The translations under genes were made by a program, and so were the position numbers. From contig NZ_JAAATX020000007.1 of the NCBI RefSeq assembly GCF_009908265.2, positions 62,001 through 126,000 of the forward strand: a stretch of 64,000 bases of DNA, in the 5' to 3' direction. How positions within the stretch are numbered: the stretch's first letter is position 1; the number at the start of each line of letters is the position of its first letter. This stretch comes from Paragemmobacter amnigenus (GTDB lineage Bacteria > Pseudomonadota > Alphaproteobacteria > Rhodobacterales > Rhodobacteraceae). Shown one piece after another: positions 1,521 through 13,236 of this stretch. The notes beneath the pieces were generated by a model. That model worked only from the letters and a program-made list of their open reading frames with translations. It ran no database searches and had not been told where the DNA came from.

Positions 1521-2098
1521 GGCCGCACCCTTTCGCGGACCCATGCCCAGAGGCGGGGGGCGCCGCGTTCGATCTTCGTTCCCACCCTGTTCTGCAATTG
1601 GTCGAAGGTGACGTCGTAGGTCACCCATGTGCCGCCGCCGGATTGCAGGTTGGCCATGACGGGCTGCACGCGGTCTAGCGATTTGGCGAAGCGGGCGTCG
1701 GGGGTTTCGGCGGCCTCGAATTCGTCCCAGAGGGCGCGGAAGTCGCGGGCGAGGTCGGGGGGGAGGAGGCCGAAGATGCGGTCGGCGGCGCGTTGTTCGG
1801 CGGCCTGCGTTTCCGGCGCGGCATGGGCGGTGCCGTTGGCGGAATGGATCGGCACGTCGCCCACGTCGATTTCCACGAGGTCGTGGAGGAGGAGCATGCG
1901 GATGACGCGGTTGATGTCGACGCCCGCCTCGGCCTGATCGGCAAGGGTGAGGGCGTAGAGCGCGAGGTGCCAGCTGTGTTCGCCCGAGTTCTCCGGACGC
2001 GAGCCGTCGACAAGCGTGGTGGCGCGCAGGACGGATTTGAGGCGGTCGGCCTCGTTCAGGAAGGCGAATTGGGCGGTCAGGCGGTCGTCGGGCGTCAT
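1508..2098 (-). CDS. HD-domain phosphohydrolase (YfbR/5'-nucleotidase-like)
   Basis: An HD-superfamily metal-dependent phosphohydrolase of 196 aa. The metal ligands are visible: the first His in GEHSWH (about residue 41), the HD pair in LLHDLVEIDVGD (about residues 72-73) and a later Asp in AKSLDRVQP. YfbR-type family members dephosphorylate deoxynucleoside monophosphates, but the substrate here is only inferred. I chose the ATG at 2096-2098, which shares one base with the stop codon of the upstream gene (TGATG). A TTG three bases earlier is possible. It is the last gene of a tightly coupled three-gene minus-strand operon. Confidence 0.85.
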   Translation of the reverse strand: MTPDDRLTAQFAFLNEADRLKSVLRATTLVDGSRPENSGEHSWHLALYALTLADQAEAGVDINRVIRMLLLHDLVEIDVGDVPIHSANGTAHAAPETQAAEQRAADRIFGLLPPDLARDFRALWDEFEAAETPDARFAKSLDRVQPVMANLQSGGGTWVTYDVTFDQLQNRVGTKIERGAPRLWAWVRERVRPYFG

Positions 2099-2361
2099 CA
2101 ATGGCCGCTGTCGGGGCCGCGCGGGGCCTGCGGGGCCGCCCCGCCGGAGCGTTTGGCGGCCAGCATGCGGGCGAGGAAGTCGCGCCCGCGCTTTTCGGCC
2201 AGGCGGACGCGGACCGAGGTCATGAAGGCCTCTTGCGTGGTGGGCGAAAGCTCGCCCAGCACCTTGGACATCTTTTCGTAGAACCGGTCGTCGCCCAGTT
2301 CCGCCTGCGCCTCGAGCACATCGCGGGCGAGGGCGTCGGCCAGATCCTCGATCACGCCCAT
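2098..2361 (-). CDS. small conserved-looking protein, 87 aa
   Basis: No function is recognised. It is a short, charged, mostly helical protein with no membrane segment, beginning MGVIEDLADALARDVLEAQA and ending in a Gly/Pro-rich tail. Its ATG shares one base with the stop of the alpha/beta hydrolase gene (TGATG at 2359-2363). Its own stop shares one base with the start of the HD-domain gene. This coupling at both ends argues that it is translated, and that the three products are needed together. Confidence 0.75.
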   Translation of the reverse strand: MGVIEDLADALARDVLEAQAELGDDRFYEKMSKVLGELSPTTQEAFMTSVRVRLAEKRGRDFLARMLAAKRSGGAAPQAPRGPDSGH

Positions 2362-3020
2362 CAGCGCGAGCCTTCCGTCAGGCGGCGGCGGACATAGTCG
2401 GACACCGTGTCGATCATCGGCTTCATATGCGCCTCTTCATCCTTGAAGAAGTGGTCGGCGCCGTCGATTTCGGTGTGGGTGATGGTGATGCCCTTCTGTT
2501 CATGCAGTTTGGAGACCAGTTGCTTGGTGTCCTTGGGCGGGGCGACGCGGTCGGCCGAGCCGTTGATGATGAGGCCCGAGGAGGGGCAGGGGGCGAGGAA
2601 GGAGAAGTCGTAGAGGTTCGCGGGCGGGGCGACCGAGACGAAGCCGGTGATTTCGGGGCGGCGCATCAGGAGCTGCATCCCGATCCACGCGCCGAAGGAG
2701 AAGCCCGCGACCCAGCAGTGTTTCGCGTTCTGGTTCATCGATTGCAGGTAGTCGAGCGCCGAGGCCGCGTCGGAGAGTTCCCCGATGCCCTGATCGTATT
2801 CGCCCTGCGACCGGCCCACGCCGCGGAAGTTGAAGCGCAGGACGGTGAAGCCCAGATTGTAGAAGGCGTAATGGAGGTTGTAGACCACCTTGTTGTTCAT
2901 CGTCCCGCCATATTGCGGGTGGGGATGCAGCACGATGGCGATGGGGGCGTCACGGTCCTTTTGCGGGTGGTAGCGTCCTTCGAGCCGGCCTTCGGGGCCT
3001 GCGAAAATCACTTCGGGCAT
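2361..3020 (-). CDS. alpha/beta hydrolase, dienelactone-hydrolase-like
   Basis: A cytosolic alpha/beta-fold hydrolase of 219 aa. The oxyanion-hole region reads VLHPHPQYGGTMNN. The nucleophile elbow is GFSFGA (Ser about residue 109), the acid is probably in INGSADRVAPP and the catalytic His in DGADHFF. There is no signal peptide. This short subclass is widespread in proteobacteria and its physiological substrates are unknown. First gene of a three-gene operon with one-base stop/start overlaps. Its start at 3020 lies only about 30 bp from the -35 of the divergent iscR promoter, so the two promoters may interfere. Confidence 0.88.
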   Translation of the reverse strand: MPEVIFAGPEGRLEGRYHPQKDRDAPIAIVLHPHPQYGGTMNNKVVYNLHYAFYNLGFTVLRFNFRGVGRSQGEYDQGIGELSDAASALDYLQSMNQNAKHCWVAGFSFGAWIGMQLLMRRPEITGFVSVAPPANLYDFSFLAPCPSSGLIINGSADRVAPPKDTKQLVSKLHEQKGITITHTEIDGADHFFKDEEAHMKPMIDTVSDYVRRRLTEGSR

Positions 3021-3051
3021 TCGTGTCGCCTGTCTTTCCTGGAGCGATTTG

Positions 3052-3080
3052 TTGACGAATTCGCTCGGATTATTTAGAAC
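3052..3080 (+). promoter_or_regulatory. predicted promoter of iscR-suf operon
   Basis: TTGACG at 3052-3057, a 17-bp spacer, then TAGAAC at 3075-3080: a near-consensus housekeeping promoter. The predicted transcription start is near 3087, about 87 bases before the iscR ATG. The -10 lies inside the Irr-type box at 3073-3089, so occupancy of the box would block transcription. Confidence 0.65.
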
Positions 3081-3089
3081 GGTTCCAAG
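3073..3089. promoter_or_regulatory. Irr/ICE-type iron box over the iscR-suf -10 element
   Basis: The 17-mer TTTAGAACGGTTCCAAG closely matches the imperfect palindrome TTTAGAA-N3-TTCYAAA known as the Irr binding site (iron control element) in alphaproteobacteria. It overlaps the -10 of the iscR promoter. Irr is known to repress iron-consuming functions, including suf operons, under iron limitation. Assignment to Irr is from motif and context only. Confidence 0.6.
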
Positions 3090-3173
3090 ACGCGTCCTGA
3101 GGGGCGCGGTCCGGGGTCGGTTTCAGGTAATGGGCCGATGTTCCCGCGTCAATGTTTTTGGAAGGTTTGGCCC

Positions 3174-3662
3174 ATGAAACTGTCGACGAAGGGGCGCTAT
3201 GCGATGGTGGCGCTGGCCGATCTGGCGCTGGTGGAGGCGCAGAGGGCGGGCAAGGCGGGCGGGGATGATCTGGTGTCGCTGGCCGAGGTGGCCAAGCGGC
3301 AGGATATCAGCCTGCCCTATCTGGAACAGCTGTTCGTGAAGCTGCGCCGCGCGGGGCTGGTCGAGGCGGTGCGCGGGCCGGGGGGTGGCTACAAGCTGGC
3401 GCGCAGTCCGGATGCGATCCGCGTGTCGGATGTGCTGGAGGCGGTGGAGGAGACGGTCGATGCGCTGCATACCGGCGCGGGCGTGTCGGGCGGCGTGTCG
3501 GGGACGCGGGCGCAGAGCCTGACCAACCGGCTGTGGGAGGGGTTGAGCGCGCATGTCTATGTCTTCCTGCACCAGACGCGGCTGTCGGATGTGATCCGCA
3601 ACCAGATGACGCCGTGCCCCGCGGTGCCGGCGCTGTTCCGCGTGGTGGACGAGGATGCGTGA
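3174..3662 (+). CDS. iscR: Rrf2-family Fe-S regulator IscR, single-cysteine type
   Basis: Transcriptional regulator of Fe-S biogenesis, 162 aa. The N-terminal winged helix begins MKLSTKGRYAMVALADLAL and includes the wing GPGGGYKLARS (about residues 69-78). The protein lacks the three-cysteine cluster-ligand motif of E. coli IscR; its only cysteine is C148 in MTPCPAVPA near the C-terminus. Rhodobacter sphaeroides IscR is known to lack the canonical triad and to bind its cluster differently, and this protein fits that type. The start at 3174 is chosen over an upstream in-frame codon because homologs begin MKLST. It is the first gene of the suf operon and probably autoregulates it. Confidence 0.9.
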   Translation: MKLSTKGRYAMVALADLALVEAQRAGKAGGDDLVSLAEVAKRQDISLPYLEQLFVKLRRAGLVEAVRGPGGGYKLARSPDAIRVSDVLEAVEETVDALHTGAGVSGGVSGTRAQSLTNRLWEGLSAHVYVFLHQTRLSDVIRNQMTPCPAVPALFRVVDEDA

Positions 3663-3690
3663 CGGGCGCGTCTTGGGCGGGCGTCGGCAC

Positions 3691-3758
3691 GGGGGGCTGT
3701 CTGCCCCCCGCGGCGCGTGCCGCGCCTCCCCCCGAGGATATTTGAGAACGGCTGAAGG
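3691..3758. repeat. intergenic repeat: G/C hairpin followed by CCCCCGAGGATATTTG box
   Basis: A 7-bp stem GGGGGGC / GCCCCCC (3691-3697 with 3703-3709) is followed by CCCCCCGAGGATATTTGAG and then GGCTGAAGG. The same order (G-run/C-run hairpin, C-run, GGAGTATTTG, then ATGAAG) recurs at 41668-41713. From memory this composite is a frequent intergenic element in Rhodobacteraceae. Here it separates iscR from iscS and its end supplies the iscS ribosome site. Confidence 0.55.
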
Positions 3759-3767
3759 AGCAGGGGC

Positions 3768-4799
3768 GTGAGGTCTCGAGTCTATCTGGACTGGAACGCG
3801 ACGGCGCCTTTGCGGGATGAGGCGCGGGCGGCCATGATTGCGGCCATGGATGTGGTGGGCAATCCGTCCTCCGTCCATGCCGAGGGGCGGGCGGCGCGGG
3901 CGCTGGTGGAGAAGGCGCGGGCGCAGGTGGCGGCGGCGGTGGGGTGCAAGCCCGCCGAGGTGGTCTTTACCAGCGGCGCGACGGAGGCGGCGGCGGTGCT
4001 GGGGCGGTTGCCGGTGGGGATGGTCGAGGTGGAGCCTACGGCGCATGACTGCCTGTGGTCGCAGCGGCGCGCGGGGCAGGGGAGCCGTGCCATAGGCTGG
4101 GGCTATGCCAATAACGAGACGGGATTGATCGTGGAGCCGCCCGCGCGGGCGGAGGGCGAGATCCTGATGCTGGACATCGTGCAGGCGGTGGGGAAGGTGC
4201 CTTTCTCCTTTGCCTGGAGCGGGGCCGAGATGGCGATCGTGTCGGCGCACAAGTTCGGCGGGCCGAAGGGGGTGGGCGCGCTGATCATCCGCGACGGGGT
4301 GGAGACGCAGCCCGTGCTGACGGGGGGCGGGCAGGAGATGGGCCGCCGTGCGGGGACCGAGAACATAATCGGCATCGCGGGCATGGGTGCCGCCGCCGAG
4401 GCCGCGCAGCGCGATCTGGAGGCGGGGGTCTGGGAGCGTGTGGCGGAACTTAGAAATATTCTAGAATCCACATTGTCCTTGGCTGGAAACAATACTATTT
4501 CCGTCGGGAAAGGCCGCGCGCGCCTGCCCAACACGCTGTGCCTGATCGCGCCCGGGTGGAAGGGCGAGACGCAGGTCATGGCGATGGATCTGGCCGGGTT
4601 CGCGATTTCGGCCGGATCGGCCTGTTCGTCGGGCAAGGTGCGGGAAAGCCGCGTGTTGCGGGCGATGGGATATGAGGGGGCTGAGGCGGCATCCGCGATA
4701 CGCGTGTCGCTTGGGCCGGAGACGACGGAGGAGGCTGTGCTGCGTTTTGCCGAGGTGTGGAGCGCGCAGTATGCCAAGGCCCTGAACAGGGCCGCGTGA
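3768..4799 (+). CDS. iscS: cysteine desulfurase (IscS/NifS-like, short form)
   Basis: PLP enzyme that takes sulfur from cysteine as a persulfide for Fe-S assembly. The PLP lysine is K162 in [10 protein letters not shown] and the sulfur-accepting cysteine is C286 in [10 protein letters not shown]. At 343 aa it is shorter than E. coli IscS (about 400). The GTG start at 3768 has GAAGGAG about 8 bases upstream. Second gene of the operon; a second desulfurase, SufS, is encoded at the end. Odd feature: bases 4447-4503 are AT-rich with codons rare here (AGA, CTA, ATT, ACT) and contain a palindrome resembling an Irr box (see findings). Confidence 0.92.
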
Positions 4800-4842
4800 A
4801 GCTGGAATGCGGGGTGCGAGCCCCAGCCGTGGAGATGGACCG

Positions 4843-6360
4843 ATGACCGAAGCCGCGCTGAAGGAAGCCGAGATCCGTGACGGGGTCGATCGCGAGACGA
4901 TCGAGACCGTGCAGGCGATGGCGGGCAAGTACAAATACGGCTGGGAAACCGAGATCGAGACGGAATATGCGCCCAAGGGTCTGTCCGAGGATATCGTCCG
5001 GCTGATTTCGGAAAAGAACGGCGAGCCGGAGTGGATGCTGGACTGGCGTCTGGCGGCCTATCGGCGCTGGGAGAAGATGGAAGAGCCGCGTTGGGCGATG
5101 CTCAACTATCCCGAGATCGACTATCAGGACCAGTATTACTATGCCAAGCCGAAGAGCATGGCGGTGAAGCCCAAGAGCCTTGACGAGGTGGACCCGAAGC
5201 TTCTGGCGACCTATGCCAAGCTGGGCATCCCGTTGAAGGAGCAGGCGCTGCTGGCCGGTGTCGAGGCGCCGGAGGGCGAGCGGAAGGTGGCGGTGGATGC
5301 CGTGTTTGATTCCGTGTCGGTGGGCACGACCTTCAAGGCCGAGCTGGCCAAGGCGGGGGTGATCTTCTGTTCCATCAGCGAGGCGGTGCGCGAGCATCCG
5401 GAGCTGGTGAAGAAATATCTCGGCTCGGTCGTGCCGCAGTCGGACAACTTCTTTGCGACGCTGAACAGCGCCGTGTTTTCGGACGGGTCCTTCGTCTACA
5501 TCCCCGAGGGCGTGCGCTGCCCGATGGAGTTGAGCACCTATTTCCGCATCAATGCCGAGAATACGGGGCAGTTCGAGCGGACGCTGATCATCGCGGACAA
5601 GGGGAGCTATGTGAGCTACCTTGAGGGCTGCACGGCGCCGAAGCGCGATACGCACCAGCTGCACGCGGCGGTGGTGGAGATCGTGGTGCTGGACGATGCC
5701 GAGGTGAAGTATTCCACCGTCCAGAACTGGTATCCGGGCGACGAGAACGGCAAGGGCGGCATCTACAACTTTGTCACCAAGCGGGCGGATTGCCGGGGGG
5801 ACCGGTCCAAGGTGATGTGGACGCAAGTTGAGACGGGGTCGGCGATCACGTGGAAATATCCGTCCTGCATCCTGCGGGGGAATGACAGCCAGGGCGAGTT
5901 CTATTCCATCGCCATCGCCAACAATGCCCAGCAGGCGGATACGGGGACCAAGATGGTGCATCTTGGGAAGAACACGAAGTCGCGGATCGTGTCGAAGGGC
6001 ATCAGCGCGGGGCGGGCGCAGAATACCTATCGGGGGCTGGTGTCGATGCACCCGAAGGCCACGAATTCCCGCAACTATACCCAGTGCGACAGCCTGCTGA
6101 TCGGCGACAAGTGCGGGGCGCATACGGTGCCCTATATCGAGGTCAAGAACAACTCGTCCCGCGTGGAGCATGAGGCGACCACGTCCAAGGTGGACGAGGA
6201 CCAGCTGTTCTATTGCCGGTCGCGGGGCATGGACGAGGAAGAGGCGGTGGCGCTGGTGGTCAACGGCTTCTGCAAGGAAGTGCTGCAGGCGCTGCCGATG
6301 GAGTTTGCCATGGAGGCGCAGAGCCTTGTGGCGATTTCGCTGGAAGGCTCGGTGGGGTGA
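4843..6360 (+). CDS. sufB: Fe-S cluster assembly scaffold SufB
   Basis: Subunit of the cytosolic SufBCD scaffold on which Fe-S clusters are built. 505 aa, with strong SufB sequence throughout, for example [19 protein letters not shown] near the N-terminus, the beta-helix core, and the C-terminal segment [20 protein letters not shown] followed by [21 protein letters not shown]. The ATG at 4843 has GGAG at 4831-4834. Third gene of the operon. Two tandem palindromes directly after its stop separate it from ybjQ and may affect processing of the operon mRNA. Confidence 0.97.
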
Positions 6361-11201: not shown

Positions 11202-11278
11202 GCACCCATAGCTCAGCTGGATAGAGTGTTGCCCTCCGAAGGCAAAGGTCGCACGTTCGAATCGTGCTGGGTGCGCCA
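11202..11278 (+). tRNA. tRNA-Arg, anticodon CCG
   Basis: A 77-nt cloverleaf can be drawn in full. The acceptor GCACCCA pairs with TGGGTGC. The D-stem is GCTC/GAGT with loop AGCTGGATA, and the anticodon stem is TTGCC/GGCAA with loop CTCCGAA. The T-arm is GCACG TTCGAAT CGTGC, the discriminator base is G, and CCA is encoded. The anticodon at 11236-11238 is CCG, reading the CGG arginine codon. Confidence 0.97.
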
Positions 11279-11287
11279 GATTTCCCC

Positions 11288-12298
11288 TTAATAGGACCGC
11301 AGTTCCGTCTGGACCACGCGGCGCAGGTCAAGCGGGTCTTCGCCTGCGAGACGGCGCAGGAGCAGGTCGGCCAGCGCATGGCCCACACTGTGGCGGGCGT
11401 AGAAGGACGTGGTCAGCGGCAGGCCCAGATAGGCGCCGAGATTGGTGGCGGCGCGCAGGGTGAAGCCGCGGGTCGCGGGGGAGAGGCCGGTATCGCGCAG
11501 GCCCGCGAGGGTGCCGAAGAGGAAAATCTCGTTCGAGCAGACGAAGCTGTCGGGGGTGGTGTCGGCCAAGGATGCGGCCACGGCGCGGCGGATGGCGGCG
11601 GCATCGGTCGGGCAGTGCAGGACGAGGGCGGGGTCGAAGGGAATGTCGGCCTCGGCCAGGGCGTTGCGGTAGCCCGTGAGGCGTTCGCTGGCAAAGTTCA
11701 GGGCGGGCGATGCCTCGACAAGCATGGGGCGGCGGTAGCCGCGTGCAAGGAGCGAGGCGGTGCCCTGATGGGCGGCGTGGATGTTGTCGATTTCGAAATA
11801 GGGATGGGTGGCGTCGGGTCCGGTCCGGCCGAAGGTGACGAAGGGCAGGTTCAGCCGTTCGAGCAGGGCGACGCGGGGGTCGTCGGGTTCGATATGGTCG
11901 ATGATGACGCCGTCGGCGGGGTTGTCGCGCAGGATGGCGGCAAGGCGGGCGGGGCTGCGGTCGTCGATATGGATGGGCAGGCTGTGCAGGATGTAATCGG
12001 TGCCCGCAAGTCGCGACTGCATGCCCGAGAGCAGGCCCGAGGTGCCGGGATCGCCGACCTCGGCATCGTCGGAGGAGCCGAGGAGCGCGAGCAGCGTCAT
12101 GGTGCGTCCTGTCCGCAGGCGCAGGCCGTCGCGGTTGCGGACATAGCCCAGTTGCTGCGCCGTGGCGCGGACACGTGCGACGGTCTGCGGGCTGATCTTG
12201 TGGCCATCGCGGAGCGAGCGTGCGACGGTCGTGACGGACAGTCCCAGCCGCGCGGCGATCTGTTTCAGGGTTGCGGGTTTGGTTGGCAGGCTGTCCAT
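11288..12298 (-). CDS. LacI-family transcriptional regulator
   Basis: DNA-binding regulator of 336 aa. The N-terminal LacI helix-turn-helix is [20 protein letters not shown] with the hinge-helix region [14 protein letters not shown]. It is followed by a periplasmic-binding-protein-like ligand domain (for example [20 protein letters not shown] and [16 protein letters not shown]). The start is the ATG at 12296-12298; the open frame extends further upstream but would run through the dif site. The ligand is probably a sugar, but no sugar transport or catabolic genes adjoin it, so target genes are not evident. It ends 9 bases after the convergent tRNA-Arg gene. Confidence 0.9.
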
Positions 12299-12405
12299 CA
12301 GGCGACCGGTAGGGGAAGGGCAATCGTACCGGGCCGGAGCCTGCGGCAGTGGGTAACGTGGGTGCGGAAATTCAATTATCAATATGGGAGAAAGGACCCA
12401 TACGT

Positions 12406-12433
12406 TATACGCATAATCAATATTATGTAATAT
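12406..12433 (+). other. dif: chromosome dimer resolution site dif (XerCD recombination site)
   Basis: 28 bp with dif architecture: XerC-type arm TATACGCATAA (12406-12416), central region TCAATA (12417-12422) and XerD-type arm TTATGTAATAT (12423-12433). By my alignment 21 of 28 positions equal E. coli dif; the inner arms CGCATAA and TTATGT are identical. It sits in an AT-rich gap between divergent genes in an otherwise GC-rich region. The orientation of KOPS-like octamers reverses around it: GGGCAGGG on the plus strand to its left, CCCTGCCC to its right. This marks the replication terminus region. Confidence 0.88.
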
Positions 12434-12524: not shown

Positions 12525-13214
12525 ATGGCCTTTTCCCGCGCGATCAAGATCGCCCCTTCGATCCTTTCTGCCGACTTTGCCAATTTCGGCGCCGAGTGCC
12601 GCGCGATCGAGGATCAGGGCGCGGATTGGGTGCATGTGGATGTGATGGACGGGCATTTCGTGCCGAACCTGACCTTTGGCCCCGCGATGTGCGCGGCCAT
12701 CCGGCCGCATATCAGGGGCGTGATGGATGTCCATCTGATGATCGCGCCGGTCGATCCCTATATCGAGGCCTATGCCAAGGCCGGTGCCGATGTGATCACC
12801 GCGCATCTGGAGGCCGGACCGCACATCCACCGCACGCTGCAAGCCATCCGGAACGAAGGGAAAAAGGCGGGTCTTGCGCTGAACCCCGGCACTGGGATCG
12901 ATGCGGTGGCGCATCTTTTGGACATGGTCGACCTGATCTGCGTGATGACGGTCAATCCGGGCTTTGGCGGGCAGAAATTCATTCATTCCCAAGTGGATAA
13001 GGTGCGTTCCTTGCGCGCCATGATCGGTGACCGGCCCATCCATATCGAGATCGACGGTGGCGTGACGGTGGAAACCGCGCCGCTGGTTGCGGCGGCGGGG
13101 GCGGATGTGCTGGTGGCGGGGTCGGCCGTGTTCAAGGGCGGGTCGGTGGCCAATCCTGCGCCCTATGGCGAGAATATCCGCGCGATCCGCAAGGCGGCAG
13201 AGGCGGCGCTGTAG
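12525..13214 (+). CDS. rpe: ribulose-phosphate 3-epimerase
   Basis: Interconverts ribulose-5-phosphate and xylulose-5-phosphate in the pentose phosphate and Calvin cycles. 229 aa TIM barrel. The family start IAPSILSADFANF, the metal-binding HVDVMDGHFVPNLTFG, DVHLM, VNPGFGGQKF and EIDGGV motifs are all present, with a phosphate-binding VAGSAVF at the end. The ATG at 12525 has CCGGAG about 7 bases upstream. It is divergent from the LacI gene across the dif-containing gap and convergent with the FAD oxidase. No other pentose phosphate genes are adjacent. Confidence 0.96.
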   Translation: MAFSRAIKIAPSILSADFANFGAECRAIEDQGADWVHVDVMDGHFVPNLTFGPAMCAAIRPHIRGVMDVHLMIAPVDPYIEAYAKAGADVITAHLEAGPHIHRTLQAIRNEGKKAGLALNPGTGIDAVAHLLDMVDLICVMTVNPGFGGQKFIHSQVDKVRSLRAMIGDRPIHIEIDGGVTVETAPLVAAAGADVLVAGSAVFKGGSVANPAPYGENIRAIRKAAEAAL

Positions 13215-13236
13215 GACCGCGCCACCCTGCCCCGTT

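Follow-up and report, generated by a model that had tools for sequence, protein, structure and literature searches.

The 28-mer at positions 12406-12433 of the window (the whole 64,000-nucleotide stretch of Paragemmobacter amnigenus DNA analysed here) is, judging from its letters and setting, almost certainly the main chromosome's dif site. An earlier note on this DNA had proposed as much, and the proposal is supported by octamers that converge on the site, by an orthologous site in the genus mate G104, by dif-like sites upstream of rpe in relatives, and by the presence of Xer and FtsK-gamma genes. The basis for this genome thus consists of the sequence itself, octamer convergence, conservation and three genes that are present. 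The site is an ordinary, conserved chromosomal dif, and the whole picture has published parallels.

By analogy with the known system, XerC and XerD would bind the two 11-bp arms. Septal FtsK, loading at division on the octamer GGGNAGGG, would drive each arm of a dimeric chromosome to the place where octamers of opposite orientation meet, and its gamma domain would contact XerD and lead to strand exchange across TCAATA, so that chromosome dimers would become monomers by XerCD exchange at dif. I infer XerCD binding, FtsK activation and recombination at this particular dif from that system.

Place and letters of the site

The 28-mer stands on the + strand as first quoted and follows an 11-6-11 plan, with an arm assigned to XerC by analogy (TATACGCATAA, 12406..12416), a central hexamer TCAATA that recurs in the genus mate G104 (12417..12422), and a predicted XerD-binding arm (TTATGTAATAT, 12423..12433). 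On its contig, C7 (266,545 bp), it occupies positions 74406-74433. Its G+C content is 18%, versus about 62-71% for the window. It agrees with E. coli dif at 21 of 28 positions (8/11 in the XerC arm, 4/6 in the centre and 9/11 in the XerD arm), and the inner arms CGCATAA and TTATGT are the same as in E. coli. The second-best place in the window scores 16 by the same measure, and the top scores of 20 first-order Markov windows were 16 or 17 each. When the window was scanned with a dif-consensus pattern at up to three mismatches, the sole match was 12406-12433, with 0.00 expected from 100 shuffles.

The site lies in a 226-bp intergenic gap between two divergent genes: a LacI-family regulator of 336 aa on the - strand (11288..12298; Pfam PF00356/PF00532; the start codon is my choice) and rpe, encoding ribulose-phosphate 3-epimerase, on the + strand (12525..13214; Pfam PF00834). 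The regulator gene itself sits between dif and a tRNA-Arg (ccg) found by ARAGORN at 11202..11278 (+). Genes for EF-Ts, ribosomal protein S2 and a SufS-like protein are also within the window, as expected of a chromosome. All that the earlier note had read from the letters (an AT-rich 28-mer of 11-6-11 plan, 21/28 to E. coli dif with identical inner arms, between a LacI gene and rpe) is confirmed.

Throughout the assembly (4.14 Mb, 37 contigs) the 28-mer is single copy at up to three mismatches, in keeping with one dif per chromosome. The exact core CGCATAAn6TTATG (18 positions) occurs in four places including the chromosomal dif, and the other three are on plasmid-type contigs; a better dif elsewhere on the same chromosome, which had been named as the finding that would overturn the reading, did not turn up.

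Compared with the E. coli dif/XerCD-FtsK system, the site shares the 11-6-11 plan, the inner arms CGCATAA and TTATGT, the converging KOPS octamer GGGNAGGG, an FtsK gamma domain and two Xer-type recombinases, but differs in its centre (TGTATA in E. coli), in its outer arms and in having no adjacent skew switch. By the letters given in PMC2731167, it shares 20/28 and 19/28 with the dif of chromosomes 1 and 2 of R. sphaeroides (Cereibacter), 9/11 in the XerD arm with each, and 22/28 with that of Bradyrhizobium japonicum. The R. sphaeroides centres are TCTGTA and GCAAGA versus TCAATA here; as in the present genome, the chromosome and a second replicon carry dif with different centres, and PMC2731167 states for multi-chromosome proteobacteria that every replicon carries a separate dif, with the centre as the main difference between them. 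Dinoroseobacter shibae, of the same family as named in PMC7901474, has dif at its chromosome terminus, and that paper describes outer membrane vesicle DNA peaking on dif.

As for the proteins, there is one FtsK-gamma match, on C6. A XerD-like protein of 314 aa on C12 scores 314.8 bits, under the curated cut-off of 329.6, and a XerC-like protein of 317 aa on C10 scores 225.5 bits; these names are mine, from score ranking, and sixteen more, weaker recombinase match rows occur in the genome.

Octamer polarity and GC skew around dif

The KOPS octamer that orients FtsK is GGGNAGGG. The same motif serves as KOPS in PMC11724359. On C7, 135 of its 154 copies are oriented towards dif (33 towards and 3 away on the left, 102 towards and 16 away on the right), as are 37 of 42 in the window alone. 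The best switch point on C7 is the 0.9-kb gap 74313-75225, which contains dif (74406-74433); in window coordinates it falls between the nearest octamer to the left (12313..12320, +) and the nearest to the right (13225..13232, -), both of which face dif. When all octamers with at least 20 occurrences on C7 were ranked, the strongest switch was that of GGGCAGGG. Control octamers had no switch at dif, with C7 counts on the + and - strands of 20/2 left and 53/33 right for GGGANGGG, 29/6 and 46/23 for GGGNTGGG, and 62/9 and 80/55 for GGGNCGGG. Because these controls keep their + strand excess on both sides, tracking GC skew, the switch of GGGNAGGG is not a composition effect. Genome-wide the octamer is hardly enriched (1,599 versus 1,449 for the reversed control); the signal is one of orientation, not of number.

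There is no GC-skew switch beside dif. On C7 the skew is positive on both sides (+0.18 to the left and +0.14 to the right within 20 kb), and it stays positive for about 175 kb rightward of dif, weaker from about C7:130 kb and below zero only past about C7:250 kb, close to the end of the contig. The skew extreme near 12.4 kb that the earlier note had named as both a check and a possible refutation is therefore missing, and GC skew, having no sign switch at the site, was rejected as a locator of dif. The accompanying claim of a replication terminus within the window is borne out where the FtsK/Xer terminus is meant, and also for a position opposite parS as seen in G104, but fails for the GC-skew terminus. 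Octamer polarity fixes the FtsK/Xer terminus within one kilobase, and GC skew on C7 is off by some 175 kb.

Splitting the skew by strand and codon position, with a rough gene caller, left fourfold sites averaged over both strands strongly positive at C7:20-130 kb (about +0.12 to +0.25), so that gene orientation alone seems not to explain the skew. Elsewhere in the genome, over 20 sampled 20-kb stretches from seven other contigs, skew sign and octamer polarity matched 14 times and conflicted 5 times, with one tie, as counted by eye. Among relatives, the skew is positive 80-100 kb left of dif and negative 80-100 kb right of it in 10/10, weakly so, two of the right-side values being merely -0.001 and -0.002; over the inner 20 kb it passes from positive to negative in just 5/10. 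In G104 the switch of sign comes some 30 kb to the right of dif, and the left arm has negative skew from about -100 to -70 kb and near-zero or negative bins from -160 to -130 kb.

C7 is collinear with G104 around dif from -74 kb (the start of C7) to about +53 kb, and between +30 and +53 kb, with largely the same genes and the same octamer polarity, the skew is positive here and negative in G104. Farther right, between +131 and +192 kb from dif (C7 about 205-267 kb), C7 matches the opposite arm of G104 in inverted orientation, an arm exchange around the terminus. This inversion was rejected as the cause of the skew, in that it does not itself explain the positive values at 0 to +53 kb. Left-arm forks may often run past dif in this genome, or may have done so until recently, but the skew is noisy here, and 5 of the 20 samples elsewhere conflict with octamer polarity.

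Published distances vary. Those from dif to the skew maximum reach 199,612 bp in PMC2731167, where they are mostly put down to noise; the same paper places the R. sphaeroides dif sites 1.8 and 28 kb from the maximum, versus the roughly 175 kb of positive skew here. PMC13342612 describes replicons of Paracoccus and Sinorhizobium whose dif does not coincide with the replication minimum, and PMC3025954 gives no dif outlier above 3% of the genome, a limit that about 175 kb in a 4.1-Mb genome exceeds. The distance from dif to the skew switch is unusual but has precedent.

Conservation in relatives and alternative readings

In G104, the sole genus mate in the family scan, TATAATCAATATTATGTCATAT stands just upstream of rpe; it has the same centre as the present dif and keeps the inner ATAA of the XerC arm, and the outer XerC arm is changed. 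The octamers face it in 156 of 174 cases over 400 kb, with the switch between -1441 and +922, and a tRNA-Arg copy, 90% identical, lies just to its left. The 3.90-Mb contig that holds this orthologous region also carries dnaA and two parS-type sites at 2.70 Mb; with dif at 0.81 Mb, dif and parS are separated by arms of 1.89 and 2.01 Mb, on the assumption of a circular contig. More widely, 239 of 247 octamers face their dif on ten relative chromosomes picked for long contigs (four 20-kb samples each).

The family scan of 198 genomes found the exact core CGCATAAn6TTATGTAA in 25, with TCAGTA the commonest centre among these exact matches, and with up to one mismatch the core in 105, versus 10 matches in total for a reversed control pattern. 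I also compared rpe loci, the best 38 of 80 examined, from named records and some of them short. A dif-like core lies at most 1.4 kb upstream of rpe in 7/38 (up to three mismatches in 15 letters), or in 8/38 if L105 with four mismatches is counted, and is absent in 30/38, some of these being short loci. Thus, dif is tied to the rpe neighbourhood in part of the relatives. The upstream site is reversed in orientation in L113 and L122; a match in L136, 3.5 kb downstream of rpe and in G+C-rich sequence, was left out of the count. A tblastn search (E <= 1e-15) of the 38 rpe loci and the G104 locus found no counterpart of the LacI-family gene, which is apparently lineage-specific.

That gene abuts dif on the left as though something had arrived there, which is what might be expected were the 28-mer an IMEX or pdif-type site, a dif-like decoy or attachment scar, and not a working chromosomal dif. 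I consider this very improbable: the 28-mer has no second copy at up to three mismatches, the orthologous site in G104 stands without the extra gene, and the octamers converge on this very copy. No better are the prospects of a true dif that belongs to a secondary replicon, or chromid, instead of the main chromosome. Plasmid-type contigs of the same genome do also bear dif cores, and a skew switch is missing here, but the window contains rpe, the SufS-like gene, EF-Ts and ribosomal protein S2, and its orthologous region in G104 is on the 3.90-Mb contig with dnaA and parS-type sites. Finally, that the arms are self-complementary at just 5/11 positions would suit a chance AT-rich palindrome, a reading that is far less credible than even these two in view of the expectation of 0.00, a random best of 17 versus 21, the octamer switch and the synteny.

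Plasmid-type dif sites and identity steps

The remaining exact cores are on C9 and C14, both with the centre TTTTGA, and on C19 (TCAAGG). C9 has two RepC matches and C14 one, the C19 dif has a VirB4-type (type IV secretion) gene on one side and one for a transglycosylase on the other, as is seen in conjugative plasmids, and the DnaA-like replicase PF10134 has no match in the genome. Within 10 kb, 11/13, 11/13 and 13/14 octamers face the C9, C14 and C19 sites, respectively. On C9 this convergence is local (38/71 within 100 kb), and 51/840 positions of the contig score as high. Across 20 plasmid-type stretches, hand-selected from the family-scan matches, 72/78 octamers face dif. Large extrachromosomal replicons described in PMC11724359 and PMC13342612 likewise have dif with converging KOPS on plasmids, the former reporting FtsK-controlled sites with KOPS bias on large plasmids; the contigs here measure 28.7, 129 and 220 kb, versus those large replicons.

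Several features accompany these sites. C9 has, besides its two RepC matches, two equally scoring integrase-type gene sets about 120 kb apart, and may be misassembled or a fusion of plasmids. Left of the TTTTGA-type dif, three loci (among them C14 and L198:8677-9936) have a bactofilin gene together with a ParDE-like pair; the ParE match is under the Pfam cut-off and ParD has no match. On C9 bactofilin adjoins dif and the ParDE-like pair is absent. A second dif bracketing the ParDE-like pair at the TTTTGA site was not found, the best score otherwise being at most 11/15 within 1.1 kb on either side, and a pdif-type module there was rejected for that reason. Left of the TGAAGT-type dif there is mostly, at a near-fixed distance, a gene (L188:9234-10025 and relatives) for a protein of 231-248 aa that looks secreted by eye and has no Pfam match. 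Used together with dif as a query, this gene had matches in 290 plasmid records; in 78 the match covers 80% or more of the query, dif not necessarily included.

In pairwise comparisons of 22 plasmid-type dif loci, several same-centre pairs changed identity exactly at dif, L185-L192 being among the loci with such steps. G165 and G161 are 98.7-100% identical over 6.7 kb left of dif, and to the right homology does not continue; C14 matches a plasmid of N. shimadae (NZ_CP069372.1, L286) at 100% over 2,977 bp on the left with nothing continuing on the right. The reverse arrangement is found in G165/G035, G153/G170, G165/G170, G035/G170, G035/G153 and G165/G153, which are 68-95% identical on the left (bins of at least 55 letters) and 98.4-100% on the right over 1.7-8 kb. 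The D. shibae plasmid pDSHI01 (L287) shares 99.6-100.0% with the group G165/G035/G153/G170 on the right (1,664-6,001 letters) and 77.6-85.6% on the left. Other pairs have no step: G111 and C19, which share the centre TCAAGG, are 82-90% alike to the left and to the right of dif; G161 and G149 have diverged on either side; and most TGAAGT pairs simply have the neighbouring gene and dif in common.

Some plasmid dif sites are in this way exact identity step points between plasmids of different genera, as XerCD crossovers would leave; an alternative is other recombination whose trace ends at a conserved site. I lean, with some reserve, towards a broader picture in which plasmids of the family carry their own dif with converging octamers and a centre mostly unlike that of the chromosome, in which these dif would act as cross-genus exchange junctions (XerCD arm swaps, for example of metal-handling cargo versus transfer backbone), and in which forks in the present genome may terminate as far as about 175 kb from dif, with FtsK and replication termini uncoupled. 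If this is true, Xer/dif would be more than a dimer resolver in this bacterial family, and plasmid dif as points of arm exchange between genera would offer a testable route of gene flow. A search of the literature by titles, abstract openings and top matches gave no report of exchange centred on dif in plasmids of Rhodobacterales; similar dif modules have reportedly been described for Acinetobacter plasmids.

The centre of dif was considered as a strict barrier between sites and rejected. Of the 198 genomes, 20 have at least two sites when one mismatch is allowed (counted by eye), and in three of these (the present genome with C9 and C14, G067 and G072) centres within one genome are identical; in G072 the three same-centre sites are all close to contig ends and are perhaps copies. 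Furthermore, pDSHI01, with the centre TTGAGT, is 99.9-100.0% identical over 6,001 letters right of dif to two TGAAGT plasmids. Given these same-centre genomes and the sharing by pDSHI01, the centre can be no more than a partial barrier. With the TCAGTA centre as query, the plasmid records retrieved were mainly enterobacterial (410 of 476 from five genera); with TTTTGA they were mainly partial matches in Borreliella, Borrelia and Leuconostoc (67 of 103).
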